Positions 17,654 to 41,798 of a DNA stretch of 64,000 bases are shown here, piece by piece; the stretch's first letter is position 1, and the number at the start of each line of letters is the position of its first letter. A program made the translations under genes and the position numbers. Origin of the DNA: Candidatus Thioglobus sp. GTDB lineage: Bacteria; Pseudomonadota; Gammaproteobacteria; PS1; Pseudothioglobaceae. The stretch is taken from positions 62,001 to 126,000 of the forward strand of contig JAOMCO010000002.1 in assembly GCA_028345055.1 (NCBI GenBank), written 5' to 3'. The notes beneath the pieces are model-generated. The model was given only the letters and a program-made list of their open reading frames with translations. It searched no databases and was not told the origin of the DNA.

Positions 17654-18061
17654 TTAACCATAATGAGTCATTAAATCTGCAATTCTTTTCAAAAAAATTG
17701 CATGCTCACATGCCTCTTCGGATGAATAAATTTCATCAAGCATTTCTACTGGCTTGCCTCTAATTCCAGAAGCAATACCAATTTTGTACTGCTCAAACAT
17801 TCTAATACATATAGTGACATATTTCCCGGCCATTGGTGCTCTTCGCATCTTATCGAGAATTGTCCTAAGATCATGGCTATGTTCTATCGCAGCCCTGCCA
17901 TTTGCAGGAGCTGTTCCTACAGGGCTATTTCTATGCTCTGAGATCAATCTTCTTCGTGATTCATCATCAAATAAAAGTGGCATTACATAGGTCCTAGTAA
18001 TATAGTCATCTGTCTCAGTATGAGACTCATTTGCTATTACACCTTTTTCTTTATCTAGCAT
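17654..18061 (-). CDS. Dimethylformamidase small-subunit-like protein, copy 2
   Basis: This 135-residue soluble protein has a C-terminal half (residues ~75-128; APMAGKYVTIC, RGKPVEMLDEIYSSEEACEHA) that aligns with the upstream neighbour at 18092-18460 (GPIAGAYVAVC, RAKPLILFEDKVFDSPEEAQTEA). The two are paralogues. Known dimethylformamidase has a ~132-residue small subunit beside a ~760-residue large subunit, matching this size and position after the large-subunit gene. I infer a small or regulatory subunit. The N-terminal half has no counterpart in the other copy. It is last in the minus-strand run (30-bp gap). Confidence 0.6.
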   Translation of the reverse strand: MLDKEKGVIANESHTETDDYITRTYVMPLLFDDESRRRLISEHRNSPVGTAPANGRAAIEHSHDLRTILDKMRRAPMAGKYVTICIRMFEQYKIGIASGIRGKPVEMLDEIYSSEEACEHAIFLKRIADLMTHYG

Positions 18062-18091
18062 TATTCAATCCTCATTAATTAATCAATATTC

Positions 18092-18460
18092 TTAATGGTT
18101 ACGACATGGAACTGTCTCACCTCGTTCTTCCTTTAGTCGAACTGCTTCAGTTTGAGCTTCTTCAGGTGAATCAAAAACTTTATCTTCAAAAAGTATCAGT
18201 GGCTTTGCTCTATCAGCATTTAACTGGCCAACACACCATTCTTTTCCCTCAATTGTACAAACAGCTACATATGCACCTGCAATTGGACCATAGTGTCTAT
18301 TATTAAGAGTAAATAAACATTCAGCCAAATCACTCACCTTATCCTCATCTAATTCACTAATTACATTTTTTTCTAATTTATTGAGAGGTTTATTGCTAGT
18401 ACCCACTACTGATTTACCTACTGGTGGATCCATCATATCGGGGTGTTTATTAATAGTCAT
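18092..18460 (-). CDS. Dimethylformamidase small-subunit-like protein, copy 1
   Basis: This 122-residue soluble protein is encoded 23 bp after the large-subunit gene and is preceded by AAGGAG. Its core (residues ~60-112: GPIAGAYVAVCTIEGKEWCVGQL, AKPLILFEDKVFDSPEEA) is shared with the 135-residue product downstream. Length and position match the small subunit of the (alpha-beta) dimethylformamidase complex. The subunit call is inferred from context and size. No catalytic motif is expected, because the iron site is in the large subunit. Confidence 0.6.
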   Translation of the reverse strand: MTINKHPDMMDPPVGKSVVGTSNKPLNKLEKNVISELDEDKVSDLAECLFTLNNRHYGPIAGAYVAVCTIEGKEWCVGQLNADRAKPLILFEDKVFDSPEEAQTEAVRLKEERGETVPCRNH

Positions 18461-18483
18461 GTTGAATTATCTCCTTTAAAAAA

Positions 18484-20862
18484 TTATGGCAAAGGGCCAT
18501 CTTTCAAAAATCCTCTAATTGCATTTTCAGTAATCCGAGAAACATTATTATTGTAGTTATTATGAGAGAGACTTCCACACCAAGACAATGATCCAGGTGC
18601 AAAAACTCCTCCATCATTTGGAGTTTTATAAAAAATCATATCTGCCCTTACCATAGGATTTTCAGTGCCTCCGCCATGATAACCTCGAACAGAAAAGTGG
18701 ATTTCTTCATTAACTTGAAGCATTAAATTAGTATGTCCAACAGAATGTGCGAGTAAATAAGAATCATGTGGAGTTCCAAATTCAACATCATATCGATCCA
18801 GCTCTAAACCTGCCGCTCCTCCACCAACAAGTCCAAAATCACCAATCTTTTCACCATTTCCAACTCCTTCCATTAGCCAAGCTGTTTCAGGCCTCTCACT
18901 ATCTTTATCTCTAACGTAATATGATGAAACATCAAAACCATACGCTGTAAAGGTCAGCCCACATAACTTACTTGGAATTCGCCCGCGAGCACGCCACATA
19001 CCGCCATATTTGCCATCAAAAGCATTATTGTATTCTCCTGGGTTTGCTGTCCATGCTCTCGTTCCAGCCTCACCTTTTCGTACCTCAATAATATTTGAAT
19101 TATCTGGATGATATTCACTAATCCAATAAAAACCATTTGCTCCTAAATAAATCCATCGACCGCCATCCTGTTGATATTTTTCATAAGCAGAAAACATCTT
19201 CTCTGAAGTATATTCAGGATGACTTCCAGTGAGAACAGTTTGGTATTTATTTAATAGCCCAACTCCTTCACGATTCAAATCCTCATCAGTATGGATGTCA
19301 AAATCAAAGTTTTTTTCTTCTAACCAATCAACAAGATGAAGATCTCCATTAAGTTGCCATAGTGATGGAGACAACCAATGACGATACTTAGGGCGCATAT
19401 TTAAAATAGGCCTCAGTCTTGATGAATAGCAGACACCACTTCCATCTGAATGCAATGAATAAGTTGAAAGTCCATATTCTCTATGCTCATTTAAATACAA
19501 ATCTGCTGCAGTCATAACAGGAACCTTTCCAGCAAGTAACTCTGCTACAACACAATTTGTACAAAGATTATCATTTGAATAAGCTAAGTAAGAATTTGTA
19601 GGCAAAATAAAAGCTAATTTAGAAGTTGCCTTCCCTCTTGGAGGTCTTATAACAAAGGGAATATAATCCTCCGTTTCTGGAGAATCCTCTCCTCCAATTC
19701 TTAATCGAGCAGCATAAACTCCACTCTTTAAACCATCTGGAATTTTTAACTCAAAATCAACATCCCAACGTGCATCGTCTATATCATCGTCATGAAAATG
19801 AATCGCGCCATATTCTTCAGGTTTATGATGATAGATAATCTCGTCACCAGTCCAGTTAAAACCTGTCATTGCTCTGACAGGCATATTTATAATGAAACCA
19901 TTTAGTCTAGACGGTGATGTATCAATAATGCAAGTTGAGGCAATATTTGTTGTTATATTTGCATGAAAGTCCCAAGCTCCTACTACATCATTTCGAAGTT
20001 CAGCTTTACAGCCCTTGTAACCACGAGCTAAAGATTCAATTTCAGACCTCGACAAAGCCCTTCTAGAAAGCCTTGGACGATCTATCTTGCCATTATAGGT
20101 ATTAATCTGTTCTGGTAATTCAATTGGCTCAAGAACCTCTTTAAAATGACCCCCACAAATATGCCTTCCTGATCTTTCAATTTTTGTACTTGCTGCAATT
20201 AAGAATGGAGCATCATTTATTCCCGGCTTGATACTATTAATAGATTCAATAACTGCAGTAGTCTCTTCAGCTGGATTCAGTAAACCTTGGCCTAGACCAC
20301 CATTTGTTGAGGTAACAACAGGCTCTTGATAAAGAGTTACTTTACCTGTCCTTGAATCATAACTGACAGCTACTAGATACCATACCTTACGTAAAAGCTT
20401 TTTATCAGTTGAAAGCCTCATAACCTGTCCACTGCCATCTCCAATCTCTACTGAAAGACAATTATTCTCATCAATAAACAATCCATAGCCACTCTTTGTT
20501 TCCTCAACCCATTTAGTCAGAATTCCTTGTCTTTGTTTTTGAGGTGTTCCAAGTCCTTCAATTGGCGTAGTTGGGAAGATATAACATTGCAAAGTAAAGC
20601 TTTCAACATTAAGCCTCTCATCTTGAGGAACAATGACATAAGAACCCCCATGTATCCTCTGGTTTCTTCCAGGATAATTTTTATTGCATTCTGCATTAAT
20701 TTCTTCCTCTTTATAACCTGGGCCCTCAGGATTAGTATCTCCATGAATTAATCGAACAATTTGAGTTTCATAAACTTCGTTTTCTTCTGAGTTAATATAG
20801 AACTTTAAATTGTCCCCAGGACAAACAGAGTATTTGTCGCTATAACCAGTAATTCTTAACAT
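18484..20862 (-). CDS. dmfA2: N,N-dimethylformamidase-like large subunit
   Basis: This 792-residue protein has an N-terminal beta-rich region, a LamG/concanavalin-like domain (~85-290) and a C-terminal amidohydrolase domain (~410-790). The Paracoccus enzyme binds iron through Tyr399, Tyr440 and Glu521, with His519 and Glu657 nearby (from memory). Here Tyr428 (SYLAYSND), Tyr468 (STYSLHSDG), Glu550 and His548 (GSHPEY), and Glu687 (AAGLELDR) fall at almost identical spacing. The family hydrolyses N,N-dimethylformamide to formate and dimethylamine; the natural substrate here may be another N-substituted amide. No signal peptide, so cytoplasmic. It lies 39 bp after the flotillin gene. Confidence 0.82.
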   Translation of the reverse strand: MLRITGYSDKYSVCPGDNLKFYINSEENEVYETQIVRLIHGDTNPEGPGYKEEEINAECNKNYPGRNQRIHGGSYVIVPQDERLNVESFTLQCYIFPTTPIEGLGTPQKQRQGILTKWVEETKSGYGLFIDENNCLSVEIGDGSGQVMRLSTDKKLLRKVWYLVAVSYDSRTGKVTLYQEPVVTSTNGGLGQGLLNPAEETTAVIESINSIKPGINDAPFLIAASTKIERSGRHICGGHFKEVLEPIELPEQINTYNGKIDRPRLSRRALSRSEIESLARGYKGCKAELRNDVVGAWDFHANITTNIASTCIIDTSPSRLNGFIINMPVRAMTGFNWTGDEIIYHHKPEEYGAIHFHDDDIDDARWDVDFELKIPDGLKSGVYAARLRIGGEDSPETEDYIPFVIRPPRGKATSKLAFILPTNSYLAYSNDNLCTNCVVAELLAGKVPVMTAADLYLNEHREYGLSTYSLHSDGSGVCYSSRLRPILNMRPKYRHWLSPSLWQLNGDLHLVDWLEEKNFDFDIHTDEDLNREGVGLLNKYQTVLTGSHPEYTSEKMFSAYEKYQQDGGRWIYLGANGFYWISEYHPDNSNIIEVRKGEAGTRAWTANPGEYNNAFDGKYGGMWRARGRIPSKLCGLTFTAYGFDVSSYYVRDKDSERPETAWLMEGVGNGEKIGDFGLVGGGAAGLELDRYDVEFGTPHDSYLLAHSVGHTNLMLQVNEEIHFSVRGYHGGGTENPMVRADMIFYKTPNDGGVFAPGSLSWCGSLSHNNYNNNVSRITENAIRGFLKDGPLP

Positions 20863-20901
20863 AATATTTCCTTAAATTTCATTAATTAAAAGTTAAATTG
20901 A

Positions 20902-22896
20902 TTAGGACTCATCGCCCTCTACGTCATCCTTTTTTTCATTATTTTTATAATCACCAAGCAGATTCTTGATATTGCTAATCTCTTTTGGAGACATACCAAT
21001 TTCATCAAGCAGATTATCAATAAATGGAACCTGGGCTCTATATCGCATAGCTGCATTAACTATATTTTCAGGTAAGCCTCCCCCTTCATTGGTAGAAGGT
21101 CCCACAAAATCAGAGTTACCACTATTTGATTTAAATCCTGGCATTCCATTCAATTCATATATTTTGATATCATCAATGTTTTCCATTGGCTTAACAGCCT
21201 CCCTAATGATTGAATCAAGATTTCTAGCCAATTCCATTCTTAGATCGCTTTGTCTACTTTCATCACTTCGAACATTTTCAGCTTCATTCAACATTAACTT
21301 GCCAGCAGCATCAATCTCATAACGAAGCTTGCTTGCTAATGAAGCATGTCTTTCTGCTTGTTCATGCTGCTCAGCAGCCTCTTTTTCAGCTCTGGCTTTT
21401 GTAGTAATTTGAATTGCTTCACTTTCCCCTTCTTTTTCTGCATTTATTAATTGCAATTTTTTATCTCTTTCTGCAACTTCAACTTCTTGAGCAGAAAGCA
21501 CCTGCTCTTCAGCTACCACTACTTGAGCTCTAGCATGCTCTTTGCCCTCAACAGCAGTTAACACTTCGACCGTTTTAGCAATAACTTCAAGTTCACGTTC
21601 TTTCTCCTCTATTTCAAGATTTTTTCGTTTTTGAATTTCTGAAGCTTGTGCTTTTTCATCATTTTCTATCCTTGATATTTCAATGATTCGCTGTTGCTGT
21701 ATTTGAAGTTTTTTAACTTCTTCTTGTGCTTTAATTTGGGCCTGCTCAGCCTCAATATATCTCTCTGATTCAACTTTAAGAACCTCAGCCTTCTGGATAG
21801 CTCTTTGAGCTGAAACTTCTTCTTCCTGCTTCAGTCTTGCAAATTCATTTTCTTTTTTAATCTCTAGTGATCTAATTTCAGCTTCAAGATTTTTTTCTTT
21901 AATATCAATCTCTGTTTGCCTTTCAATCTCATTGCGAAGTTTTTTACGTTCTTCAATCTGTAAAGTTAGCTCATGTTCTCTTAAAGAACGTTCTACCTCA
22001 ATAGTATCTTGTTGCTGAATGCGAGTTTTCTCAATATCCTCTTCTGCTTTGATTCTAGCTTCTTCTGCTAAGCGCTCTTGCCTGGCAGTCTCAATAGCTA
22101 TTTCAGTTCGCTCTTTATCTCTTTGTTTTGCAATTTCTCGCTCTTGTAGTAATCTAGAGAATTCTCTATCTTGATCTATTTCAAGTGACTTTTGCTCTGC
22201 CTCCAAATTCTTACTTCTAATTCTTATAGCTGTATCTTGTTCAATATCATTACGCTTCTTCTTTCCAGCTTCAATCTGTTCAGTTAATTGAGTCAGACCT
22301 TGAGCATCAAAAGCATTGGATGGATCAAATACCTCTAGGCCAGCCTGATCTACGCTCGTTAATGAGACAGCCTCTAGCTCTAGACCTGTTGAACCTAAGG
22401 ATTCTGCAACAATTTCTTTAACTGCTTTAATATATGCACCACGCTGCTCTTGAATCTCTTCCATAGACATCTGTGCTGCAACAATACCTAATGCATCGAC
22501 AAAACGTCCTTGTACTAAATCCCTTAGACTTTCAGGCTCCATAGTTCTTTTACCAAGAGTTCCTGCCGCAATCGATACTGCCTCCTTGCTTGGAGTTACA
22601 CGAACATAAAATTCAGCAACTATCTCAACACGCATTCTATTTTTTGTTATGAAAGATTTATCGCCACCACGTTTAACCTCGATACGCAATGTTCTCATTC
22701 CAACAGTCGTTATGTTGTGAATAATTGGCAATACAAAGGCACCACCACTTATGACAACTTTTTCACCTCGAAGTCCCGTTCTTACAAAAGAAACCTCTTT
22801 AGATGATCTTCGATACAACCAATGCAGCAAATAGACAAAAATTGCTATTGCCAATGCTGTCAAAATAATAGTTGCAATAATGTCTGCACCAGTCAT
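20902..22896 (-). CDS. Flotillin-like SPFH membrane-scaffold protein
   Basis: This 664-residue protein has an N-terminal membrane anchor (residues ~5-28), an SPFH/band-7 domain (~33-200), a long charged coiled coil (~205-560) and a C-terminal flotillin region. Flotillins oligomerise and organise membrane microdomains. The coiled coil contains a gap-free 106-residue tandem duplication: residues 213-~315 repeat as 319-~420 (KNLEAE at 229 and 335, EFSRL/EFARL at 245 and 351, RIQQQ/QIQQQ at 292 and 398). It lies 21 bp after the rhodopsin gene, the flotillin-rhodopsin pair reported for marine streamlined bacteria. Confidence 0.9.
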   Translation of the reverse strand: MTGADIIATIILTALAIAIFVYLLHWLYRRSSKEVSFVRTGLRGEKVVISGGAFVLPIIHNITTVGMRTLRIEVKRGGDKSFITKNRMRVEIVAEFYVRVTPSKEAVSIAAGTLGKRTMEPESLRDLVQGRFVDALGIVAAQMSMEEIQEQRGAYIKAVKEIVAESLGSTGLELEAVSLTSVDQAGLEVFDPSNAFDAQGLTQLTEQIEAGKKKRNDIEQDTAIRIRSKNLEAEQKSLEIDQDREFSRLLQEREIAKQRDKERTEIAIETARQERLAEEARIKAEEDIEKTRIQQQDTIEVERSLREHELTLQIEERKKLRNEIERQTEIDIKEKNLEAEIRSLEIKKENEFARLKQEEEVSAQRAIQKAEVLKVESERYIEAEQAQIKAQEEVKKLQIQQQRIIEISRIENDEKAQASEIQKRKNLEIEEKERELEVIAKTVEVLTAVEGKEHARAQVVVAEEQVLSAQEVEVAERDKKLQLINAEKEGESEAIQITTKARAEKEAAEQHEQAERHASLASKLRYEIDAAGKLMLNEAENVRSDESRQSDLRMELARNLDSIIREAVKPMENIDDIKIYELNGMPGFKSNSGNSDFVGPSTNEGGGLPENIVNAAMRYRAQVPFIDNLLDEIGMSPKEISNIKNLLGDYKNNEKKDDVEGDES

Positions 22897-22917
22897 GATT
22901 ATTTCTCCTTTAATATA

Positions 22918-23637
22918 TTAGATCTTTTTATTAATTCCATCTTTTCTAGCTTGGGTGTCATTCATAGCAGCTCTATATACAACAAACCCAAAAATAATTT
23001 TGTTCAAAAAGTCAGCCAAGTTATAAATAATATTAAGACTATTAACATCTACTCCACCACCAAGATTGTTGATGAAATAGCCAAGTGGATAAATTGCCCA
23101 GCCAATAGTTAATATTAGCCTTAAGCCATTAAATGCTAGATGTGTTGCCTCATTACCACTTTCTATATTGCAGCGACTTGCTTCTCCCATATAAAGCTCA
23201 CCAAGAATATAGAGCCAGCCCACCACTCCAATAATGAAACCTAGTGTTGCGCTCATATAGCCTGCCGCGCCTAAAAACTCACCTATCACCATAACTAGGG
23301 TTCCAATCAGTAGCCTCCAAAATAGGGCAGATGAAACTTTAGTTACTGCAGTTAGAATGACATAAAACAGAACGACCTGCATAGAATGTGTAAGTATCCA
23401 ATCTAAATACCTAAGAACAATAGGTGCTTTACCTGTATCAACCCACATCCCTTGAACATAGTAATAGAATATTGCTGAAATCAACATTGTGACCCCTAAA
23501 AGGGTCATAGTTGTATGCCATCTTTCATCAACCCTATTTCTTTCTAGTAGAAAGAAGATTGATGCACCAATCATTGCCATAGAAAGTAGCCAAAAAGTGC
23601 CGCCTACAATGTCAGTTGGTAATAATGTAGTGTTCAT
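22918..23637 (-). CDS. Divergent proteorhodopsin, flotillin-associated type (motif D-T-L)
   Basis: This 239-residue seven-helix rhodopsin keeps the retinal Schiff-base lysine Lys213 (ADFLNKIIFG), Asp209, Arg76 and the acceptor Asp79 with Thr83 (RYLDWILTHS). The proteorhodopsin donor Glu108 position is Leu90, the spectral-tuning position 105 is Gln87 (blue type) and the His75 position is Phe. The D-T-L motif and the adjacent flotillin match the flotillin-associated rhodopsins described from Pseudothioglobus and SAR11 single-cell genomes. Efficient proton pumping is doubtful; a sensory or structural role is possible. It is transcribed with the flotillin and amidase genes. Confidence 0.93.
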   Translation of the reverse strand: MNTTLLPTDIVGGTFWLLSMAMIGASIFFLLERNRVDERWHTTMTLLGVTMLISAIFYYYVQGMWVDTGKAPIVLRYLDWILTHSMQVVLFYVILTAVTKVSSALFWRLLIGTLVMVIGEFLGAAGYMSATLGFIIGVVGWLYILGELYMGEASRCNIESGNEATHLAFNGLRLILTIGWAIYPLGYFINNLGGGVDVNSLNIIYNLADFLNKIIFGFVVYRAAMNDTQARKDGINKKI

Positions 23638-23802
23638 AAAAAATCCTTGGTTCTAAATTCTGTATTAATTAGTAAATGTTTGCCGCCAATAATTAGTTTC
23701 ATAAAAAATCACTATTAAAGGCTTTTTAAAGTCTGGACAACTGAAAGAAAGTATTTAATAACCTTTAATTCAGTTATCCAAACTGGATATAACTACTCTT
23801 TA

Positions 23803-24975
23803 TTAAGCGTCAGGATCATATTCCTCTGGATTAGCAGGTCTTAAGAAGAAATTATCAAGATAATCACTTCCACCCCAAATATCAATTCCAGGGTTATACC
23901 AATCAGTTGAATTACGATCACAATCTGCTCCCATCATTTGTTCGACATCAGCATAAGTGATTTTCTGAGGTGGAACAAGAATAGACTGAATCTTAGGACC
24001 TTGTCCTTGCATAGTTCTCATCATGATATTCCAGCCAAGCTCAATATCATCTCCTGGAGGCCATGTTTGAATTGCAGCACTAATATATTCTGGATTATTA
24101 CGCCAGTAACATAATGCTCCTAGTTCACCACCTATTGATAGAGGAACCATTTCACGTCCAGATTGCTGAAGTGCAGCTAAAACCCCTGTCTCACCAGATG
24201 ACTGAACTGCCATTCCATCAAGTTGCCCTGGGTGAGTTGCAAGCCATTTTTGAGTTTCAGCTTGTCCAACTTGGGATGTCCACATGTGTGCTATTTGTCC
24301 AGTGACTTTAATACCTGGATATCTAGACAAACCATCAAGTACACCGGCATTTTGTGAATCTGAAGCTGAATAGCCAGGTATACCTTCTACGACTAGAATG
24401 TTACCTTCACCACCTACCTCTTCAGCCATCCATGTACCTACGTCAAACCCTGCTTGATGATAGTTAACTGATGAGTTAACTGAAAGTGGCGAAGTGGTAT
24501 ATCCAGTAAAAGAAAATACTGGAACACCTCTGTCAAATGCATACTTTATAGCTTGATTCAAAGCAGTAGGATTTGAACAACAGATAATAATTGCATCTAC
24601 ACCTTGATCAACTAATTGTCTAATTTGCTGAATCTGCAAAGCATCTTTAAGATTTGACTGAGTAACAACGATGTCATTCAGTAATCCCAGTTCCTGCCAC
24701 TTAGGTTTAATTTCATTCATTAAACGATTCATAGCACCTTTACGCCATGTATTACCCGCGTAAGTACTGGCATAACCAACAGTCCATGGTGGTGAACGAT
24801 CACTCTTCCAATCTCTAAATGCACTATCATCAAGAGGTTGCATAGGATCCATCAAGTCCATGTTATAAACTGCATCAGTAATATCAGACGGTACTTCATC
24901 TAATCCTGCAAATGTCATACTAGTAAAACCTAGTGACAATAAGCAAGCCATAATCATTTTTGATAATTGTTTCAT
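23803..24975 (-). CDS. Periplasmic substrate-binding protein, ribose-type ABC family
   Basis: This 390-residue protein has a signal peptide ending at TFA (residue 23) and a two-lobed type-I periplasmic-binding fold. The segments YASTYAGNTWRKGAMNRL, QIRQLVDQGVDAIIICC and FDRGVPVFSFTG resemble Peripla_BP_4 sugar-binding proteins. It is first in the minus-strand run, with a strong ribosome site (AGGAGAG) and its own promoter at 25102-25129. A 165-bp gap separates it from the rhodopsin gene, which would allow higher expression of the binding protein. It presumably serves the ABC ATPases and permeases nearby; the ligand may be an amide rather than a sugar. Confidence 0.87.
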   Translation of the reverse strand: MKQLSKMIMACLLSLGFTSMTFAGLDEVPSDITDAVYNMDLMDPMQPLDDSAFRDWKSDRSPPWTVGYASTYAGNTWRKGAMNRLMNEIKPKWQELGLLNDIVVTQSNLKDALQIQQIRQLVDQGVDAIIICCSNPTALNQAIKYAFDRGVPVFSFTGYTTSPLSVNSSVNYHQAGFDVGTWMAEEVGGEGNILVVEGIPGYSASDSQNAGVLDGLSRYPGIKVTGQIAHMWTSQVGQAETQKWLATHPGQLDGMAVQSSGETGVLAALQQSGREMVPLSIGGELGALCYWRNNPEYISAAIQTWPPGDDIELGWNIMMRTMQGQGPKIQSILVPPQKITYADVEQMMGADCDRNSTDWYNPGIDIWGGSDYLDNFFLRPANPEEYDPDA

Positions 24976-25090
24976 AATAATTACTCTCCTTTTTTGATTT
25001 ATAGATAAGCTTAATTGCCAAATCTACTAACCTTAGAAATGTCCTATTTAATTGGCGTTTAAGCAAATTTAAACATAATTACATAGTCTA

Positions 25091-25190
25091 AAGTATGCAC
25101 TAGTATATCATAACACATACAATAGTCAACTTAAGTATGTATTATTTAATCATATACCTATAAAGTATGTATTTATCCATAAAGTATGCA
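25091..25190. promoter_or_regulatory. Cluster of GTATG/CATAC operator repeats in the divergent promoter region
   Basis: Within the 301-bp gap 24976-25276, AAGTATG[T/C] occurs at 25091, 25133, 25163 and 25182, with an inverted CATAC at 25116-25120. Spacings are 42, 30 and 19 bp, roughly whole helical turns. The repeats flank and overlap the promoter of the minus-strand operon and lie upstream of the response-regulator gene. They look like binding sites of that LuxR-type regulator (inference). The rest of the gap holds only AT-rich DNA. Confidence 0.65.
25102..25129 (-). promoter_or_regulatory. Sigma-70 promoter of the binding-protein/rhodopsin/amidase run
   Basis: On the minus strand the -35 TTGACT (25124-25129) and -10 TATACT (25102-25107) are separated by 16 bp, with a predicted start near 25095. 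GTATGT begins 3 nt downstream of the -35 box and ACATAC ends 5 nt upstream of it, so a regulator bound there would contact the polymerase site. The core TTGACTATTGTATGT recurs as TTGACTATAGTATGT at 32040. Confidence 0.7.
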
Positions 25191-25276
25191 GTCCTATTAA
25201 TATTTTTGATTAATAAATACTGTACAATCAAGGAGTAAATTTAATAAAAATAATCTTCTGGGAGACTGAAATTACC

Positions 25277-25960
25277 ATGGAAAACAAAAAGGATATTAGG
25301 CCTACTAAATATAAAATTGTTATTGCTGATGATCACGCCCTAGTTAGAGGTGGCCTAGAATTAGTTGTTAAAATGGCTGTTCCTAATGCTGAAATATTTC
25401 AAGCAAATAATTTTGATGAAACAATTAATGTTCTTCAATCCAACTTCTCAATTGATCTTGTTTTGCTTGATTTAATGATGCCAGGGATGTGGAGTGATAG
25501 TATTCAAAGTATTACTCAAAAATTCCCTGATGTTCCTATTGTTATTGTCTCTGTTAAAGAAGACTTTGATTCTATTCATAATTCTATCTCATTAGGTGCT
25601 TCTGGATTTATACCCAAAACTTCTGCGCCAGAAGTAACAATAAGTGCTATTCAACTTGTTCTCTCAGGAGGAGTATACATACCACCTCATGTTCTTAAGC
25701 CACAGAATAAAACTGTGCTTCGCAACCATGAATCAAACGATTTTGATGGCTTCAATAGCCTATCAAAAAGACAAAAACAAGTCCTGGACTTAATTAGTTT
25801 AGGAAAATCTAATCAAGCTATTGCTGATGAATTAGGCTTAACCATTCCAACAATTAAAATGCATGTTTCAGCAATTCTCAAAAAATTGAAGGTCAAAAAT
25901 AGAACTGAAGCTGTTTCTATTTATACGAATTTAGAAAAATCATCAGGGGTGTTATCTTAA
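25277..25960 (+). CDS. NarL/FixJ-family response regulator
   Basis: This 227-residue protein has a receiver domain (residues ~12-130) with the acidic pair Asp18-Asp19 (IADDHALVRGG), phospho-acceptor Asp65 (LVLLDLMMPG) and Lys114. A LuxR-type helix-turn-helix follows at ~158-222 (SKRQKQVLDLISLGKSNQAI). It is preceded by GGGAGA. It is divergent from the binding-protein operon across a region full of GTATG repeats, which it probably binds. The partner is most likely the hybrid kinase at 28734-30803, with the TorT-like gene 26 bp downstream. Confidence 0.93.
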   Translation: MENKKDIRPTKYKIVIADDHALVRGGLELVVKMAVPNAEIFQANNFDETINVLQSNFSIDLVLLDLMMPGMWSDSIQSITQKFPDVPIVIVSVKEDFDSIHNSISLGASGFIPKTSAPEVTISAIQLVLSGGVYIPPHVLKPQNKTVLRNHESNDFDGFNSLSKRQKQVLDLISLGKSNQAIADELGLTIPTIKMHVSAILKKLKVKNRTEAVSIYTNLEKSSGVLS

Positions 25961-25986
25961 ATCATCGAAATTAAATAAATTTGATT

Positions 25987-27177: not shown

Positions 27178-27198
27178 AAATTAATTCAAGTTAATAAT

Positions 27199-31913: not shown

Positions 31914-32030
31914 TGATTAATTTCTCCTAACACTATCAACTTTTAAACAAAATTTAACAATTAAATTGAGTATTTTTTAAAATCTATTGTACATCAAGGA
32001 AGCTCAATTTATACCCAATATAGATAATAA

Positions 32031-32068
32031 TACATACTATTGACTATAGTATGTAATAGTAGTAAACT
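32031..32068 (+). promoter_or_regulatory. Promoter with palindromic operator, shared with 25102-25129
   Basis: A perfect 9-bp inverted repeat TACATACTA (32031-32039) / TAGTATGTA (32047-32055) brackets the -35 box TTGACT (32040-32045). A 17-bp spacer leads to a -10 box TAAACT (32063-32068). The core TTGACTATAGTATGT differs at one base from the core at the other promoter of the island. The symmetrical site could also control the divergent permease-kinase genes. Confidence 0.72.
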
Positions 32069-32095
32069 ATACCTATACTTTTGGATGTTTTTTGT

Positions 32096-34291
32096 ATGGA
32101 AATTGGAGAAGAAAAACTATTAAATGAGGACGCTTCTAAAGATTCAGGAATATTAAAGGCTTTTCCTGGAGAGCTTTATGTGAAGAATGTTCACAAATCC
32201 TTTGGAGTAACCAAAGCTCTAGCTGATGTTAGTTTTACTGGTTATTTTGGTGAAATTCATGCAATTATTGGTGGAAATGGCTGTGGAAAGAGCACTCTTG
32301 CAAAGGTTTTAGCAGGGGTATTGCCAATCGATTCTGGAAAAGTTTCAATTAAGGGGGCACACCCTTCAACTCCAAAAGAATCTCGTAACCTTGGCGTAGC
32401 TATGGTTTTTCAAGAAGTACTTGTTGCTGATGAAGCCTCAGTAGTTGATAACTTATTTATTGGAGTAGATGGCTTTATCACTAAAAACTTATCTGACAAA
32501 GAAAAGCAAGATAAAGCTAGAGAATTACTTAGTGAACTTGCTGATGAAGAAATTGATCCATTAATGCCTGCTGGAAACCTACCTCTTAGTATCAAAGCAT
32601 GGATTACTATTGCCAGGGGCTTGCTAAGAGAGCCTGACGTATTAATTCTTGATGAGTCTACTGCCGCTCTGGATTTTGATTCTACGGAAAGACTCTTTGA
32701 AAAAATGCGTGAATTACGCGATAAAGGTTCAGCAGTTATTATTGTCTCTCACCGCATAGCAGAACTAGTCAGAATTAGTGATCGCTGCACAGTCATGCGA
32801 GATGGTATTGATGTTGGAGTATTAGAAAAAGATGAAGTCACAGAAAAAAACCTTTTGCGTTTAATGACTGGAAAAGATCAAAAAACAGAAAAAACCAAAG
32901 ATGAAGCACATCAAACAAAATATTCTCAAGTCTCTCTCAAAACAAAAAATATGCAAGTTTGGCCTGATAGTGAAAAGTCTGACTTTGAATTACTCAAAGG
33001 TGAAATTGTAGGAGTGACTGGACTAGATGGTCATGGGCAGGATGATTTTATACGTATTCTTGCTGGTGTTGCTAATGCATATGAAGGTTTCACAGAAGTA
33101 GGCATTAATCATGGTCATAAGTACTTCTCAATTAAAAGCCTTGAAGACGCAATCAAACATGATATTGAGTTTGTTTCAGGTGATCGAAAGCGAGAAGGAA
33201 TCCTTCCAAATCTTAGTATTATTGAAAATTTAGGTATTTCGATGTATCACAAATTTAGCAAAATTCCTGGTGTACGATTTATAGACTGGTCAGCTATAAA
33301 TGATGTTGTTGATTGGGAAGTTGAACGACTTGCAATCAAAACTGGTCCTAGAGAAAACCTAATAACATCCTTAAGTGGTGGTAACCAACAAAAAGTTATG
33401 TTGGGAAGAGCATTTGCAACTCAACCTAAGATATTAATCTTACTTGACCCTGCTAGAGGAATTGACTTAAACACTAAGTTGGACCTTTATAAGCAATTAA
33501 GAGAGTTTGCAGATGATGGAAATTCAGTGGTCTACATGTCAAGTGAGCTTGAAGAGTTTATTGGTTTCTGTTCTCGCGTAGTTGTTTTTCGTGAAGGAAG
33601 TATTTTCGAAACATTTACTGATGAACAAATTAACGCTGATGGAATCCTAGAGTCTATGTTTGGACATCGACAAAAATCTGAACCAGAGAAAGTAACAAAT
33701 AATCAACATGCCAATAAAAATGATGTATCTACACTAAACAATCAAACTAAAAAAACCCAGCCTGACAATAAATTGGAGACTGAAGTGAAAAAAAATACTA
33801 TAAGTAAATACTTTAACAATCAGACCGAAAATATAAATCCTATAAAAGTTTCAAAGAAAGATTTCTCCTCTCAAGACGAAGATCAATTTAATAAAATATT
33901 GAGCTCAACAGAGAAAAATAGTAACAGAAAAAAATATGAAACAAAACAGAAAAATAATCCAAATCCCAAAATATATGAATATTCAGAAAATGATTCGAAA
34001 AATTTTGAAGACCTCATTACTTCAGGCGAAAAGGTAGTTAAAAGCAAAGGCAAAAGTAGCTTTCGAAAGAATAAAAATAATGAAGCTTATTCAAGCTCTG
34101 ATGAAGAACTATTTAATAAATATCTATCTTCAACTGAAGATAAAGCAGATGATCAAATTCTTGATGGTCTAGAAACCAAGAGAAAAGAAGAGCATTTAAT
34201 AGATCAAAAACCAAATACATCTGAATCTAAAACATTTGAATATAACGAGAAAGATGTCGCGCAATTTGAAAAGCTCATGTCAAAAAAATGA
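32096..34291 (+). CDS. Ribose-type ABC ATPase with long repeat-bearing C-terminal tail
   Basis: This 731-residue protein has two fused NBDs (~20-515). NBD1 has an intact Walker A (GGNGCGKST) and LILDEST. NBD2 has GLDGHGQDD for Walker A and LILLDPARG where LILDEPTRG is usual, so hydrolysis there is doubtful. After ~520 comes a charged, low-complexity tail of ~200 residues with four related short motifs: DFSSQDEDQFNKILSSTE, YEYSENDSKNFEDLI, AYSSSDEELFNKYLSSTE, FEYNEKDVAQFEKLM. Such tails are not part of normal RbsA proteins. I take the ATG at 32096; a TTG at 32081 sits too close to the predicted transcript start. Confidence 0.88.
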   Translation: MEIGEEKLLNEDASKDSGILKAFPGELYVKNVHKSFGVTKALADVSFTGYFGEIHAIIGGNGCGKSTLAKVLAGVLPIDSGKVSIKGAHPSTPKESRNLGVAMVFQEVLVADEASVVDNLFIGVDGFITKNLSDKEKQDKARELLSELADEEIDPLMPAGNLPLSIKAWITIARGLLREPDVLILDESTAALDFDSTERLFEKMRELRDKGSAVIIVSHRIAELVRISDRCTVMRDGIDVGVLEKDEVTEKNLLRLMTGKDQKTEKTKDEAHQTKYSQVSLKTKNMQVWPDSEKSDFELLKGEIVGVTGLDGHGQDDFIRILAGVANAYEGFTEVGINHGHKYFSIKSLEDAIKHDIEFVSGDRKREGILPNLSIIENLGISMYHKFSKIPGVRFIDWSAINDVVDWEVERLAIKTGPRENLITSLSGGNQQKVMLGRAFATQPKILILLDPARGIDLNTKLDLYKQLREFADDGNSVVYMSSELEEFIGFCSRVVVFREGSIFETFTDEQINADGILESMFGHRQKSEPEKVTNNQHANKNDVSTLNNQTKKTQPDNKLETEVKKNTISKYFNNQTENINPIKVSKKDFSSQDEDQFNKILSSTEKNSNRKKYETKQKNNPNPKIYEYSENDSKNFEDLITSGEKVVKSKGKSSFRKNKNNEAYSSSDEELFNKYLSSTEDKADDQILDGLETKRKEEHLIDQKPNTSESKTFEYNEKDVAQFEKLMSKK

Positions 34292-34337
34292 ATATAAAAA
34301 TATAAGGAAAAATTAGTAATAAATCCTAATCAAAACT

Positions 34338-36527
34338 ATGGAATTAATTGAAAAACAACAATCAAAATCAAGTCCAAGTACCTATCTCATAGTTCCGATA
34401 GTTATTTTCTTTTTACTCTTGATATTTGCTACCCTCAGAGGACCATACTTGGTTTCAAGTACTGGTTTTGGTGGACTTATTATCGTAGTAACTCCGCTAA
34501 TTTTAGCTACTTACGCATTGACTATCATTGTAATGGCTGGGCGTGCTAGTGTCGATTTATCAATTGGCCCCCTGCTTAGTTTCATTAATGTAGGAATGAT
34601 TCAGCTAATTGGGGTAGGTTTTATGGATTCACCAATTGCTCTTTTCTTATATGCAATTGGTGTTGGTGTTGCATACCAAGTCCTAATGGCCCTCATTATT
34701 GTTTTTGTCAGAGTTCAACCCATCATTGTTGCATTGAGTGGATACCTTTCATTGGTTGGCTTGAATCTTATCATAATGCCTCGTCCAACTGGTCTAGCAC
34801 CAGACTGGATGTATGATTGGGGTGCAGGAATTAATATTATTTCACCCGTTTTAATTATATTGATAATAGCCACAGCAGCATGGTATCTGCTTGCACAAAC
34901 GGCTTTTTGGGGTAATCTAAAAATGATGGGGTCAGATGAGCGAGCTGCCTATACTAGTGGAGTTAATGTTAATCTGGTTCGAATTGTTGCTCATGCAATT
35001 GGTGGCGTTTATGCTGGACTTGCAGCTATAACTTTCACTTCATTAATTAGTTCTGGCGACCCCTCTCAAGGGACAACCTACACGCTAATGGCCGTTACAG
35101 CACTTGTGCTCGGCGGTGCAAATTTAGCTGGTGGTCGAGGAAGTGCCTTTGGAGCATTACTTGGCTCGCTTAATATTTTTTTAATTACCTATGCACTTTC
35201 AACGTTTAACTTTGGCAAGATGCAAGCCTTTGTGACTGATATGTCTTATGGTCTTATGCTGGTTGTTTCATTATTGATAAGTCTTGCAATACCTTTGCTC
35301 CAAAAACGCGCTCGAGGACTATCCCCAGGATTGGTATTTTTAGTTCTTGGAATAATTACAGCAGGCGTTATGGTCCATGCTTCAATGGATCAGTCAATGG
35401 GAATTAAAAGATTTGCAGCTGCTAAAGCTTCAACTGGAACTGAAGACGGACTATCAGCAGGCACAATTATTTTGTTTTTAGTAGTTGGAATAGCAGTTGT
35501 CTCTTATATTGTAAGAACACTATTTAAATATATTAGCGCACCGATGGTTGGATTTATTATTGTATTAATCGTAACTGCTCTAGGTTTAATTTTTAATCCA
35601 GAAGCTCCAAGTGATTCAGCTTTAATTTCTTCAAGCCTAAAAACTATTGGTGCTGATTATTACTCTATGAGTATTTTTGGATTGGAATCAATTTCTCAAT
35701 CACAATACTTTTCTTTTAATACACTGACAAACTCTACCTACACATTAATTGGAATAGTTGGAGTAATTTTATTAACATCATTAATTATCCTGATTATGCT
35801 TCCTGATACGAATGCTAAGACTAAAAAAACCTCAACAATTTTATTTATTTGCACAATACCTATTATTGCAATAGGTGCACTGTTCTTTGAAAACGCAGAT
35901 CAAGGCTATTTAGCTAGCAATTTTTCTGGTGAAACTTACGCTATTCTTTTGGTTGCTGCACTTCTATTTATTATTACTATTCCGATGGTAAAAAACAAAT
36001 TCAACAACATTAACAATTTGTTTATAGGAGCTATATCTATATTAGCTTTAATTGTTATATATTTCTTTGCAACTGATAGCACTCCTATGCATGAGGTTGC
36101 AAAAGGTAGCATTGTAGTAGCAGGCAAGGTGCTAAATGCTCAGCATCCTATTATCCCAATAGGAATAGAGCCTATAGCAGCCAAGATTATCGAATACAGT
36201 GGTCCAATGCGAGTCATGAATGAATCTAAAGGACTAAATATTGTTTCGGAGATTGCTTATTGCGCTTTTATGGTTGTTTTACTTCATATATTTTTACGTC
36301 TAGCTATGGGAGAAACTAGCTTTAAAAGTTTTTGGAAATACTGGTATATACCAACCTTTGCTGTAATTGTTTGGAGTGCTCTGTTTTATGCAATTGGTGT
36401 GCCTTTATGGCAAATAATTGTTGTTATTGCTATTGCAATAATTTCAGCACCAAACGTGATGCACATAATTAGCACCTACATAATAGGTGAGCAAAAAGAT
36501 GATGATATAAAAAAATGGGAAGGATAA
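34338..36527 (+). CDS. Oversized ribose-type ABC permease
   Basis: This 729-residue integral membrane protein is more than twice the usual permease length. Residues ~1-325 are a BPD_transp_2 permease (IIVMAGRASVDLSIGPLLSF, VRVQPIIVALSGYLSLVG, LVLGGANLAGGRGSAFGALL). Residues ~330-729 add roughly ten further hydrophobic segments with no motif I recognise. It lies 46 bp after the tailed ATPase gene and 34 bp before a second permease, so the two may form a heterodimeric channel. The extension may bring extra subunits or place the complex in a membrane domain (inference). Confidence 0.85.
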   Translation: MELIEKQQSKSSPSTYLIVPIVIFFLLLIFATLRGPYLVSSTGFGGLIIVVTPLILATYALTIIVMAGRASVDLSIGPLLSFINVGMIQLIGVGFMDSPIALFLYAIGVGVAYQVLMALIIVFVRVQPIIVALSGYLSLVGLNLIIMPRPTGLAPDWMYDWGAGINIISPVLIILIIATAAWYLLAQTAFWGNLKMMGSDERAAYTSGVNVNLVRIVAHAIGGVYAGLAAITFTSLISSGDPSQGTTYTLMAVTALVLGGANLAGGRGSAFGALLGSLNIFLITYALSTFNFGKMQAFVTDMSYGLMLVVSLLISLAIPLLQKRARGLSPGLVFLVLGIITAGVMVHASMDQSMGIKRFAAAKASTGTEDGLSAGTIILFLVVGIAVVSYIVRTLFKYISAPMVGFIIVLIVTALGLIFNPEAPSDSALISSSLKTIGADYYSMSIFGLESISQSQYFSFNTLTNSTYTLIGIVGVILLTSLIILIMLPDTNAKTKKTSTILFICTIPIIAIGALFFENADQGYLASNFSGETYAILLVAALLFIITIPMVKNKFNNINNLFIGAISILALIVIYFFATDSTPMHEVAKGSIVVAGKVLNAQHPIIPIGIEPIAAKIIEYSGPMRVMNESKGLNIVSEIAYCAFMVVLLHIFLRLAMGETSFKSFWKYWYIPTFAVIVWSALFYAIGVPLWQIIVVIAIAIISAPNVMHIISTYIIGEQKDDDIKKWEG

Positions 36528-36530
36528 ACG

Positions 36531-36572
36531 ATGGGTATGACAAGTATTAAGAGGAATAAAAGTGGAAACTAG
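36531..36572 (+). CDS. Possible 13-residue leader ORF overlapping the next permease start
   Basis: ATG at 36531 follows GGAAGG and reads MGMTSIKRNKSGN before a TAG at 36570-36572. It overlaps the GTG start at 36562 in another frame. The arrangement suggests translational coupling rather than a functional peptide, and expression is unproven. Confidence 0.3.
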   Translation: MGMTSIKRNKSGN

Positions 36573-37986
36573 AAGAATGGGAAAAGCTGCTTTCTCTTTT
36601 TATAAGTGGCTTGGATTTATTATTGCCGTAATCATTTCAGGTATTAGTGCTGTACTTGGGTACATTGATAATACCCCCTCTCAGCTAATAATCCTTTATA
36701 CAGTTGCAATTTTTGGCTCTATTCTTTGGGGCTGGTACCACCTTTCAGTGCGATGGCAATTCAAAGAAGACAAGGATGAAAAAAATACCCAATCATCTAA
36801 AGAGTTAAGTGAAGCAATAATAGATGATAGTGAACACCATGAAAGTTATATTAGTTATCTTATTAAAAGTAACAAGTTCGCGATTATAGGAATTATAGCA
36901 ATGATTATTGCTTTTGTTGCCCTGGCATTTGCAATGGACAATTTTTTTGAGTGGAAAAATGTTCTTACTCTTGTAGTATTTTTCTTAACACTACTAGTCC
37001 TTATTATCACAAACTCTGTTGCCAAAAATAATAAGAGTGCCATGATGGGCTTAGCGGTTCTGATTGGACTTTTTATTATGGGCTCATTGATTGTTGATGG
37101 ATTTATCTCAACTTTAAATCTTAAATCAATGCTACTTTTTGCATCATTTCTTGGACTTGCATGCATTGGACAAACTCTAGTAGTTCTTCTTGGAGGTTTA
37201 GATTTATCTGTCAGCTTTGTAATAGGTGCTGCAAATATTGGCCTGATGTACTTAATCAATCTTGGCCTACCGCCATGGATTTGTATTATCGCAGTCTTAA
37301 TGGTTGGTATTGGTGTAGGACTTGTTAATGGCTTGTTAAGTTTTCGACTTCAAGGACAAGCCTTGATTCTAACTCTAGGTGTTGGTTTCGTTATTACTGG
37401 TCTAGTGCAGGCTTTAACAACTATTGGCTCTGACTTTGGTGGAAGTGTTTTTGGAGTTGTACCTAAATGGCTATCTAATATCGCAGCTGCAAATGGCACT
37501 GTTTTTGGTATTAGTATTCCTCCAGTTGTTGTTATTTGGGTCGTTCTTTCAATATTATTAATAGTTGCACTAAAAAATACAACTTGGGGGCGAAATTTGT
37601 ATGCTGTTGGAGGGAATCGAACTTCAGCAGCACGTTTATCAATCTCTGAACGAACATACTGGGTAGGTGTTTTTACTATTGGTGGCTTTATTTCGGCACT
37701 AACAGGAATTCTACTTCTTGGTTGGAGTGGTGGTGGCTTTGTTGGCGTAGGAGGTCCCTATCTATTTCAAACAATAGCAGCAGTAGTAGTTGGAGGAACT
37801 TCATTGCTTGGAGGTAAAGGAGGATATGGATTTACAGTTATAGGTGTTCTAGTTCTTCAAGTACTATCTTCTTTCCTTGTTGGTATTGGATTAAGTTATG
37901 AAGGGCAACAATTTGTATTTGGACTACTGATTCTACCAATGGTTGCTTTATATGCAAGATCACCTCATATAAGAACGCAAATTTAA
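36562..37986 (+). CDS. Ribose-type ABC permease with N-terminal membrane extension
   Basis: This 474-residue membrane protein starts at GTG (36562) after AGAGG. The first ~185 residues hold about five extra hydrophobic segments and a charged loop (~75-100). The BPD_transp_2 permease follows (LLGGLDLSVSFVIGAANIG, LILTLGVGFVITG, VVGGTSLLGGKGG). Normal RbsC-type permeases are ~330 residues. It lies 34 bp after the 729-residue permease and is the likely second half of the same transporter. Confidence 0.88.
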   Translation: METRRMGKAAFSFYKWLGFIIAVIISGISAVLGYIDNTPSQLIILYTVAIFGSILWGWYHLSVRWQFKEDKDEKNTQSSKELSEAIIDDSEHHESYISYLIKSNKFAIIGIIAMIIAFVALAFAMDNFFEWKNVLTLVVFFLTLLVLIITNSVAKNNKSAMMGLAVLIGLFIMGSLIVDGFISTLNLKSMLLFASFLGLACIGQTLVVLLGGLDLSVSFVIGAANIGLMYLINLGLPPWICIIAVLMVGIGVGLVNGLLSFRLQGQALILTLGVGFVITGLVQALTTIGSDFGGSVFGVVPKWLSNIAAANGTVFGISIPPVVVIWVVLSILLIVALKNTTWGRNLYAVGGNRTSAARLSISERTYWVGVFTIGGFISALTGILLLGWSGGGFVGVGGPYLFQTIAAVVVGGTSLLGGKGGYGFTVIGVLVLQVLSSFLVGIGLSYEGQQFVFGLLILPMVALYARSPHIRTQI

Positions 37987-38018
37987 AAAAAATTAGTATC
38001 TTAAGGAGAAAACTATTG

Positions 38019-38057
38019 ATGCCAAAAAACTATATAAGAATAAAGAAAAATGACTGA
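38019..38057 (+). CDS. Possible 12-residue leader ORF overlapping the symporter start
   Basis: A strong AAGGAG (38003-38008) precedes ATG 38019, which reads MPKNYIRIKKND and stops at 38055-38057, overlapping the symporter start at 38050 by 8 nt. The symporter ATG itself has no good ribosome site, so it is probably reached by re-initiation. Peptide function is not implied. Confidence 0.35.
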   Translation: MPKNYIRIKKND

Positions 38058-39981
38058 AGTTATCAATTGGATATTTATTTTCCTTGGACTATATTGGGCT
38101 TTTTGCTTGTTTTGGGGTGTCCGTGCTGGAAAACAAATAGGAACAACTGACGATTTTTTTCTATCTAATAGAAATATATCTCCCTGGGTTTTTGCGCTTG
38201 CTGCAACAGCAATTTCTTTTGCTGGCTGGATATTTATTGCCCACCCAGGACTAGTATTTAGAGATGGTTTTCAATTTGCAAATACTTCATTCATTGCAAT
38301 AATAGTAGCAATTTCTGGAGTTGTTTTACTTAAAAGACAATGGATGTTAGGAAAACGTTTCGGATATTCCACTTCAGGAGAAATGTTGTCCGCCTACTAC
38401 AAGGGTGATGGCTTACGAATTATTTCAGTTGGAATTGCTCTTCTATTCGGGATACCTTTTGTAGCAATGTTATTTGGAGCTTCAGGTTTTCTAATAAGTG
38501 AATTAACAAACGGAATGCTTTCAAGAAATTTTGCAATGTGGGTCCTATCCGGCTTTGTACTTTTATATTCAATTATGGGTGGAATGCAAGCAATATTAAA
38601 AATTGCAGCAGTGCAGTTTGTTTTATTTATTCTAGGAATGATTCTTTTAGGTTTATTTGCTTTAGAGCTAGTTGGTAATTTTGATACACTTAATCAAGGG
38701 CTTGCAAATATTTCAAAAGATGTACCAAGCCACCTAGGAGAAACAAAAGGAATGGGAGGGGGTAATTTCCCAGGATATTTTGCAATACCTGGAGTGATTC
38801 AGTTTACTGATGGCATAGGAATCGAATTACCAAAAGGTGGCCCATGGACATCAATAATGATATTAACTTTTGTACTTTCTGTTATGGGTATACAGTCTTC
38901 ACCATCATTTACAATGCTTGGATTTACAAGTCGATCACCAAAAGGTTTTGCAATTCATCAGATTTGGGGAGCTGCAGCAGTAGTAGGAATTATTTTGTTT
39001 GTATTCTCAATTCTAATAGGTGTAAGTGCAAATCTTTTAGGTGCAAATGCTGATGTTAATGAAGCTGGTCTTGCGATTGGGAATTATCTGCCTGAAATTT
39101 CAAAAGGGCAACATACTGAATTAGTTATTCAATTTATAAAACTTTTAGGAAATAGTTCACCATGGTTAGGTGGTTTTCTTGCTGTTTGTGCTATTGCTTC
39201 TCTTCAGGCAACAGCTACTTCATTTATGTCAACTACGGGTAATATTTTATCGCGTGATATATATTTTCACTACTTTAATAAAGATTCTGATGATAAACAA
39301 CAATTAGGTGTAGCTAGATTGTTTACTGGATTAGTTTTCTTATCTGGAATGTTATTAGCTTCATATTCTATGGAAGCGACGATTCTTCTTGGTAATTTAG
39401 CTATAGCATGTTCTTTTCAATTATGGCCATCATTGCTAGGTGCAACATGGTTACCATGGATTAATCGAAGTGGAGCAATAGCAGGTTTGAGTATCGGTCT
39501 TATAGCGGTTATTTTGACTGAGCCAATTGGTCAAAAACTTACAGGAGGTGCATTGCCTTGGGGAGTTTGGCCTTGGAATGTTCACTCAGCAGTATGGGGA
39601 ATGTTTTTTAATATTATAATTTGTATGGTAGTTTCACTGATGGCTGAAAATGATTCTGAAAAAGATCATAGACAAACTTTCCATAATTTTTTTAAAAAAC
39701 ATAGCGAAATTAAATCAAGTGATCGTTGGTCAAAACCTATTGGCGCTTTAATACTTATGATTTGGATGTTTTTTGCTATTGGACCAGGATCTATATTTGG
39801 AAATATGGCATTCGGTGAACCCAATATTGGCTTTGATGAATGGATGTTAGGAATGCCATCTATTTGGGCATGGCAAATAATTTGGTGGGCATTAGGAGTT
39901 GGTGCAGTTTGGTTTCTAGCAAATAAATTAAGAATGTCTGTCGAGCCAGAAAGTGAAATAAAAGCCATTTCTTCAGATTAA
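38050..39981 (+). CDS. Sodium:solute symporter family protein
   Basis: This 643-residue membrane protein with about 13 or more hydrophobic helices belongs to the SSS family (Na+/solute symporters such as PutP and PanF). Visible signatures are GKQIGTTDDFFLSNRNISPW near the N-terminus, the unwound first helix ALAATAISFAGWIFIA, and a QATATSFMSTTGNILSRDI segment in the Na+-site region. It is last of the plus-strand transport run, 63 bp after the permease and overlapped by a mini-ORF. It may import the same or a related small solute with sodium as driving force. Confidence 0.88.
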   Translation: MTEVINWIFIFLGLYWAFCLFWGVRAGKQIGTTDDFFLSNRNISPWVFALAATAISFAGWIFIAHPGLVFRDGFQFANTSFIAIIVAISGVVLLKRQWMLGKRFGYSTSGEMLSAYYKGDGLRIISVGIALLFGIPFVAMLFGASGFLISELTNGMLSRNFAMWVLSGFVLLYSIMGGMQAILKIAAVQFVLFILGMILLGLFALELVGNFDTLNQGLANISKDVPSHLGETKGMGGGNFPGYFAIPGVIQFTDGIGIELPKGGPWTSIMILTFVLSVMGIQSSPSFTMLGFTSRSPKGFAIHQIWGAAAVVGIILFVFSILIGVSANLLGANADVNEAGLAIGNYLPEISKGQHTELVIQFIKLLGNSSPWLGGFLAVCAIASLQATATSFMSTTGNILSRDIYFHYFNKDSDDKQQLGVARLFTGLVFLSGMLLASYSMEATILLGNLAIACSFQLWPSLLGATWLPWINRSGAIAGLSIGLIAVILTEPIGQKLTGGALPWGVWPWNVHSAVWGMFFNIIICMVVSLMAENDSEKDHRQTFHNFFKKHSEIKSSDRWSKPIGALILMIWMFFAIGPGSIFGNMAFGEPNIGFDEWMLGMPSIWAWQIIWWALGVGAVWFLANKLRMSVEPESEIKAISSD

Positions 39982-41795: not shown

Positions 41796-41798
41796 AAT

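Follow-up and report, generated by a model that had tools for sequence, protein, structure and literature searches.

Why a marine bacterium should keep a rhodopsin and a flotillin beside an iron amidase, a set of transporter genes and a sensory system is the question raised by a 64-kb stretch of Candidatus Thioglobus sp. DNA (the window hereafter), part of contig C12 of a genome of 1.31 Mb and 74% completeness. The genes form an island of 15, from orfA, which begins at 17654, to a gene for an SSF-family sodium symporter, which ends at 39981. The original prediction had taken this 22-kb block for a coupled unit for the uptake and hydrolysis of small amides, with a sensory system of its own and perhaps modulated by light. 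We identified the proteins by Pfam and NCBIfam profile scans, and the open reading frames (ORFs), their coordinates and the identities of all named genes agree with the gene content and positions first given. The unit is real and was already published in outline; comparison with other loci recasts it as a flotillin- and rhodopsin-associated importer with hydrolases, lineage-specific enzyme modules and short shared peptide tags. On balance, we lean toward the view that the island encodes a solute importer organized by flotillin and rhodopsin, onto which hydrolases dock.

Two further genomes of the genus, G003 (AG-390-E17) and G009 (FRAM18_bin301, 'SUP05 cluster'), have all 15 genes in synteny, at 64-97% identity, and none of the window's flanking genes lies within 20 kb of the island in either. 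Because the 15-gene synteny recurs there with different flanks, the grouping is not a matter of chance. The island order is also matched across the available sequence of L053 (SCGC AB-629-P17), where the locus is incomplete. A flotillin-associated rhodopsin (FArhodopsin, or FAR) is present in 2 of the 12 other genomes of the genus that were compared, the rest having ordinary proteorhodopsin only, or none. We take the genus to be Pseudothioglobus from these genome records and from the DTL motif of the rhodopsin, which PMC10308929 links with it. Within the island the genes for rhodopsin (22918..23637), flotillin (20902..22896; Pfam Flot and Band_7), the amidase large subunit DmfA2 (18484..20862), orfB (18092..18460) and orfA (17654..18061) follow one another on the minus strand with gaps of 21, 39, 23 and 30 bp in that order, in keeping with the predicted single strand and gaps of 21-39 bp.

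The core of the island is a complete ATP-binding cassette (ABC) importer together with the symporter, the rhodopsin and the flotillin. Its substrate-binding protein, PBP4 (23803..24975, minus strand; Peripla_BP_4, 1e-36), has orthologs (45-66%) that adjoin ABC2 elsewhere. ABC2 itself (32081..34291; ABC_tran) is an ATPase with a long C-terminal tail, followed on the same plus strand by two extended permeases (both BPD_transp_2), perm2 (34338..36527), with a C-terminal extension of ~400 residues, and perm3 (36562..37986), with an N-terminal extension of ~150 residues, and then by the symporter (38050..39981; PF00474), which is kept in most FAR loci. The binding protein, double ATPase and BPD_transp_2 permeases are those of a ribose (CUT2)-type ABC importer, and no curated sugar-specific model passed its cut-off. 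A vitamin B6 transporter was considered and rejected, ABC2 (residues 1-470) scoring 231 against a cut-off of 670.

This core is far from confined to the genus. The order PBP4-ABC2-perm2-perm3-rhodopsin-flotillin, usually with the SSF gene near, is found in sponge-type and Kiloniellaceae alphaproteobacteria (L055-L058), in G209 and in Rhizobiaceae, and importer, rhodopsin and flotillin, nearly always with SSF, recur in SAR11, HIMB59, Pseudothioglobus, sponge-type alphaproteobacteria and cultured Rhizobiaceae. The Rhizobiaceae-type clusters are plasmid-borne, in hosts that are soil, plant-associated or marine bacteria. A perm3 ortholog occurs in 4 of the 297 genomes sampled from the family of G598 (inferred to be SAR11) and in 40 of the 52 from that of G646 (inferred to be HIMB59). 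Flotillin was dropped as a marker of the cluster since flotillins are widespread in the phylum. As far as we have checked, the importer core across lineages is new relative to the published FAR cluster.

Importer, symporter, rhodopsin, flotillin, DmfA2, orfA and orfB occur together in 14 of 14 planktonic loci (4 from Pseudothioglobus, one of them incomplete at a sequence end, 3 from SAR11 and 7 from HIMB59), which, with the shared operator described below, supports the idea of a coupled uptake and hydrolysis unit. No DmfA2 homolog was found, however, in three larger alphaproteobacterial genomes that have the importer-rhodopsin-flotillin core, nor in the other loci of that kind compared; G209, G577, G664, G271 and G061 are all without DmfA2. 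Because the loci of the larger alphaproteobacteria do without it, the amidase is a planktonic add-on that stands outside the core.

A possible link between importer and enzymes lies in two short motifs, motif A (IKIVEFD) and motif B (YxxxDxxxFxxI/L), with the tag peptides MKIVEFDDKGQRV and YSSSDEELFNKYLSSTE. The tail of ABC2 in the window carries four copies of motif B (33863..34288, plus strand), whereas the tail in alphaproteobacterial FAR loci has motif A instead, twice in SAR11, HIMB59 and the sponge types, where the second copy stands at the extreme C-terminus. Motif A is also found at the N-terminus of the lactonase AttM in 15 Rhizobiaceae-type loci and G209, C-terminally on biotin carboxylase (BC) in HIMB59 and on PxpC in SAR11, and on small array proteins that follow ABC2. 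HIMB59 has motif B N-terminally on its AttM-like and PxpB proteins, and SAR11 has it in the linker of the BC-PxpB fusion and in an array protein. The tag on AttM thus differs by lineage, A in Rhizobiaceae and G209 and B in HIMB59, and the Pxp complex bears both tags, on different subunits, in SAR11 and in HIMB59. Motif A gave 18 matches in FAR proteins against 0 in 177,696 amino acids (aa) encoded by flanks and control DNA of SAR11 and HIMB59 genomes; in the 15 Rhizobiaceae-type loci it gave 23, all in the C-terminal tail of ABC2 or at the N-terminus of AttM, and 0 in 23,935 aa of flanks. A motif B matrix built from the window's tail only found 9 sequence windows of at least 16 bits in alphaproteobacterial FAR proteins against 1 in flanks and control.

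The tags keep company with the rhodopsin and flotillin: all seven importer-only loci, which have neither, are without the ABC2 tail tag and have a short perm3, and within one family AttM is tagged in 8 of 8 FAR genomes and in 0 of 5 FAR-less ones. In three loci that also carry a divergent lysine-less rhodopsin (L189, L191 and L192), ABC2 is fused, in the position of the tail tag, to what reads as a PEBP/YbhB-like domain. The annotation of a Hoeflea plasmid gives AttM 256 codons (L203, 4488-5258), against a 311-aa ORF, at matching coordinates in L178, that starts with MKIVEFDDKGQRV; the annotated start probably misses the tag, and annotation that begins AttM past it may be the reason the tag was overlooked. 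The shared tags are, as far as we have checked, a new feature. Separately, in the perm2 of L055 (6076-8478) the linker contains repeats of GLTVLGAEPD, possibly a third repeated motif. The proposal, from phyletic profiles, that motif A binds SCP2-like, abhydrolase or metallo-beta-lactamase (MBL) proteins was rejected, the importer-only G271 having SCP2-like and abhydrolase genes and no tag.

We infer that these are docking tags. In the mechanism that we propose, PBP4 would pass a small solute to the importer formed by ABC2, perm2 and perm3, with the symporter as a second uptake route, and cytosolic hydrolases would split it, here the dimethylformamidase (DMFase)-type iron amidase with its two small-subunit-like proteins and in relatives also the AttM lactonase, an alpha/beta hydrolase and a biotin-dependent lactamase of the PxpABC type. 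The motifs of the disordered ABC2 tail, found again at the ends and in the linkers of the relatives' enzymes, would hold enzymes and importer together at a flotillin/rhodopsin membrane domain. A bolder version, to which we give slightly less than even credence, makes the FAR operons a peptide-addressed metabolon, in which motifs A and B, interchangeable with each other, recruit catabolic enzymes to the ABC importer in a flotillin domain. The carriers of the motifs would be the importer ATPase, subunits of the lactonase, carboxylase and lactamase, and array proteins that stand alone, and the rhodopsin, its chromophore site lost in many lineages, would be structural or chemosensory.

Of the competing explanations the one that survives best, though we consider it unlikely, is that the tags are not docking sites but segments that are sticky or serve degradation or solubility, or else are what is left of disordered tails with repeats. 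Such an origin would fit their location in disordered-looking, charge-rich tails and the variable number of repeats, but it sits poorly with the sharing of one core motif by proteins that are not homologous and bear it at opposite ends, with conserved islands inside variable linkers and with the lack of tags on FAR-less AttM and importer-only ATPases. Docking has its own difficulties. Within the window ABC2 is the only tagged protein, AttM of SAR11 has no tag, nor have the enzymes encoded in the sponge-type loci, and no tag receptor was found. With a weighted position-specific scoring matrix, motif A at 12 bits or more gave 22 matches in 68 kaa (thousands of aa) of FAR proteins against 8 chance matches in 174 kaa of control, and some of the regular expressions were drawn after the sequences had been seen. 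Loci within a lineage are related and are not independent samples, so what counts for the tags is how many non-homologous proteins carry each motif, about five. In addition, the predicted model of the perm2 extension is of low confidence, with a predicted local distance difference test score (pLDDT) of 46, and the substrate is putative.

The rhodopsin bears on the next two alternatives. The window protein (Bac_rhodopsin, 1e-30; alignment and tree) has D79-T83-L90 ('DTL') and keeps K213, and with DTL in place of DTE it is non-pump-like, as had been claimed. FAR rhodopsins form a clade apart from the proton-pumping proteorhodopsins (FastTree, 21 proteorhodopsins and 18 FAR sequences, topology only). 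The window's protein and those of the SAR11, HIMB59 and sponge types keep the retinal lysine. The 16 loci of the Rhizobiaceae and G209 types have Arg there, except for Leu in L198, and carry G for D, S or T for T, and A or T for E; another three loci, which are divergent, also have Leu in place of the lysine, so that 19 of 19 Rhizobiaceae-/G209-type orthologs are lysine-less. Those hosts thus retain an otherwise largely intact operon whose rhodopsin has no retinal site. This supports a shared role that would be independent of light, with light effects possible in plankton, and we infer that the common role is structural or sensory and not pumping.

The published reading holds that a FArhodopsin-flotillin microdomain aids the genome's proton-pumping proteorhodopsin where light is dim, and that the genes for transport and metabolism are passengers. 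A DTE proteorhodopsin is indeed encoded elsewhere in the same genome (G000:C23, L010; residues D-T-E-K), the planktonic rhodopsins keep the lysine, and a depth distribution is given in the text of PMC10308929. We nevertheless regard this reading as improbable, given that the Rhizobiaceae-type plasmid clusters, whose rhodopsins have Arg or Leu for the lysine, keep the operon of importer, rhodopsin and flotillin, that the importer genes are conserved as widely as the rhodopsin, and that the authors write in that text that function could not be established. We have similarly little confidence in light-modulated uptake, in which the planktonic FArhodopsin would bind retinal and gate, or sense light for, the importer. 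Retention of K213, D79 and T83 in the window, and of the lysine in the other planktonic and sponge types, would suit it; the uniform loss of the lysine from otherwise largely intact operons would not, nor would the finding, in the text of PMC10308929, that a DTT form expressed in E. coli bound no retinal. As a general role, the light modulation first suggested is doubtful, since the Rhizobiaceae-type orthologs have no retinal lysine.

The amidase can be placed with more precision. DmfA2 (DMFA2_C, 3e-94; 6lvb_A, E=2e-191, alignment read by hand) aligns over its full length with the Paracoccus DMFase, and the iron ligands Y428, Y468 and E550 and the catalytic H548 and N576 are all kept; the roles of these two Tyr, Glu, His and Asn residues in the DMFase active site are described in PMC7686228. 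Its predicted pair of small-subunit-like genes holds up. The orfA product is a homolog of the small subunit DmfA1 (profile against 6lvb_B, E=2e-6), kept in SAR11 and HIMB59 clusters, and that of orfB is a second, divergent one (hhalign to orfA 77%, E=2e-5). Compared with the PDB by sequence, the orfB profile gave no credible match; the best PDB match of its low-confidence predicted model (pLDDT 62) is 6lvb_B (Z 5.8, root mean square deviation 3.1, 58 aligned), and its status as a divergent relative of the small subunit is supported, if more weakly than for orfA. Elsewhere in its genome G003 encodes a further member of the DMFA2 family (L155, G003:C10:10801-13065), with 40% identity to DmfA2 of the window.

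Among relatives the enzymes vary. SAR11 clusters also carry PxpA, the BC-PxpB fusion, PxpC, biotin carboxyl carrier protein, an AttM-type lactonase (400.9 bits against an NCBIfam cut-off of 390) and an iron-type alcohol dehydrogenase (Fe-ADH). AttM is annotated in FAR clusters of Hoeflea, Martelella and Pararhizobium, and in Martelella sp. AD-3 AttM, Fe-ADH and succinate semialdehyde dehydrogenase (SSADH) lie in one run, the enzyme set of the gamma-butyrolactone pathway; a search limited to the island found none of the three among its 15 genes. The alpha/beta hydrolase had no match in the PDB at E<=1e-10. As far as we have checked, this pathway and the lysine-less rhodopsin in operons of Rhizobiaceae and their allies are also new. 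The lactonase, dehydrogenase and SSADH set suggests that the solute is a small cyclic ester or amide, and the substrate class would be a small lactone, lactam or N-substituted amide. Of the amide substrate proposed at the outset the DMFase enzyme class is supported by the residues of DmfA2, with N,N-dimethylformamide (DMF) as substrate unproven. A system specific for DMF or N-alkylformamides has full-length homology and all catalytic residues in its favor, but is very unlikely, the DMFA2 family also including an N-acetyl-beta-phenylalanine acylase (8huy) and the importer being kept without DmfA2 beside lactonase, alcohol dehydrogenase and SSADH genes.

The remaining island genes concern sensing. 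On the plus strand lie a LuxR-type response regulator (25277..25960; Response_reg and GerE), a TorT-like periplasmic sensor protein (25981..27177; Peripla_BP_4) and ABC1, a second ribose-type ATPase (27199..28746), and on the minus strand a hybrid histidine kinase (28734..30803; HAMP-HisKA-HATPase-REC) and the permease perm1 (30900..31913; BPD_transp_2). The sensor protein scores 288 bits with the TorT model NF008185 (cut-off 200) but 216 with TIGR02955 (cut-off 310); against TorS models the kinase half alone matches, at 147-212 bits with cut-offs of 982 and 676. Six of the window's seven WAGTATGYA sites are intergenic, four in the 301 bp between PBP4 and the regulator (25091..25190, plus strand) and two, inverted, in the 167 bp between perm1 and ABC2 (32031..32055), and they stand at the same places in G003, G009 and L053. 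The motif probably serves the LuxR-type regulator as its operator and, as had been suspected of two distant promoters, would tie the two transcription units together; in Pseudothioglobus the TorT-like sensor, hybrid kinase and regulator probably activate both operons through it. Because Pseudothioglobus alone among the loci compared showed the TorT/kinase/regulator, ABC1 and perm1 genes, the dedicated sensory system is not general.

Outside the island, to its left (12526-17443), a luciferase-like monooxygenase, a glutathione S-transferase, a SnoaL-like protein, an alpha/beta hydrolase and a TPR-sulfotransferase are encoded on one strand. To its right (40908-43936) two succinyl-CoA-ligase-like subunits and an HpcH/HpaI aldolase resemble malate thiokinase and malyl-CoA lyase of the serine-cycle type.

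The closest known system is the FAR cluster of Haro-Moreno 2023 (PMC10308929), whose text names the FArhodopsins and describes clusters in SAR11 (about 26 kb), HIMB59 and Pseudothioglobus with flotillin, a sterol-carrier-like protein, an inner-membrane translocator, a sodium symporter, N,N-dimethylformamidase, PxpA, biotin-dependent carboxylases, hydrolases and Fe-ADH, and with LuxR and a hybrid kinase in Pseudothioglobus. It gives the motifs DTT, DTL or DNI in place of DTE, assigns DTL to Pseudothioglobus, and proposes a lack of retinal binding, unproven. The island shares with it the DTL rhodopsin beside flotillin, the DMFase, LuxR, hybrid kinase and symporter, its standing as a discrete island and a DTE proteorhodopsin elsewhere, so the coupling of amidase, rhodopsin and flotillin, first thought undescribed, was already known. 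The term ABC, on the other hand, is absent from the main text of PMC10308929, and in its text, Table S2 apart, we found no lactonase pathway, lysine-less Rhizobiaceae-type operons or shared tags; we found no open-access paper joining rhodopsin, flotillin, ABC transporter and Rhizobiaceae. FArhodopsins occur in abundant ocean bacteria and have lacked a function; the conserved importer and hydrolase unit with its shared tags would offer a directly testable mechanism, and a lysine-less rhodopsin lies in the same operon of the culturable Rhizobiaceae Hoeflea, Martelella and Pararhizobium gei.

With the Paracoccus DMFase (PDB 6lvb; PMC7686228) the island shares the large subunit over its full length, the iron ligands and catalytic His and Asn, and a small-subunit homolog. 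It differs in having two distinct small-subunit-like proteins, and in gene set and host. The genes attK, attL and attM together account for the three enzyme types, lactonase, Fe-ADH and SSADH. The relatives' FAR operons, with AttM lactonase, Fe-ADH and, in Martelella, SSADH, resemble in this the Agrobacterium blcABC (attKLM) operon, whose reaction order on gamma-butyrolactone is given in PMC5924552. Unlike that operon, they join the enzymes to importer, rhodopsin and flotillin and tag AttM at its N-terminus, and the window's island is without the three enzymes. Encapsulation peptides and microcompartment targeting peptides provide precedents for peptide-addressed recruitment of enzymes. Like them, the FAR tags are short peptides on unrelated proteins, at either terminus; in contrast to them, they have no shell protein beside them in the window, as far as its genes were scanned with Pfam, and are borne also by an ABC ATPase and a stand-alone array protein.

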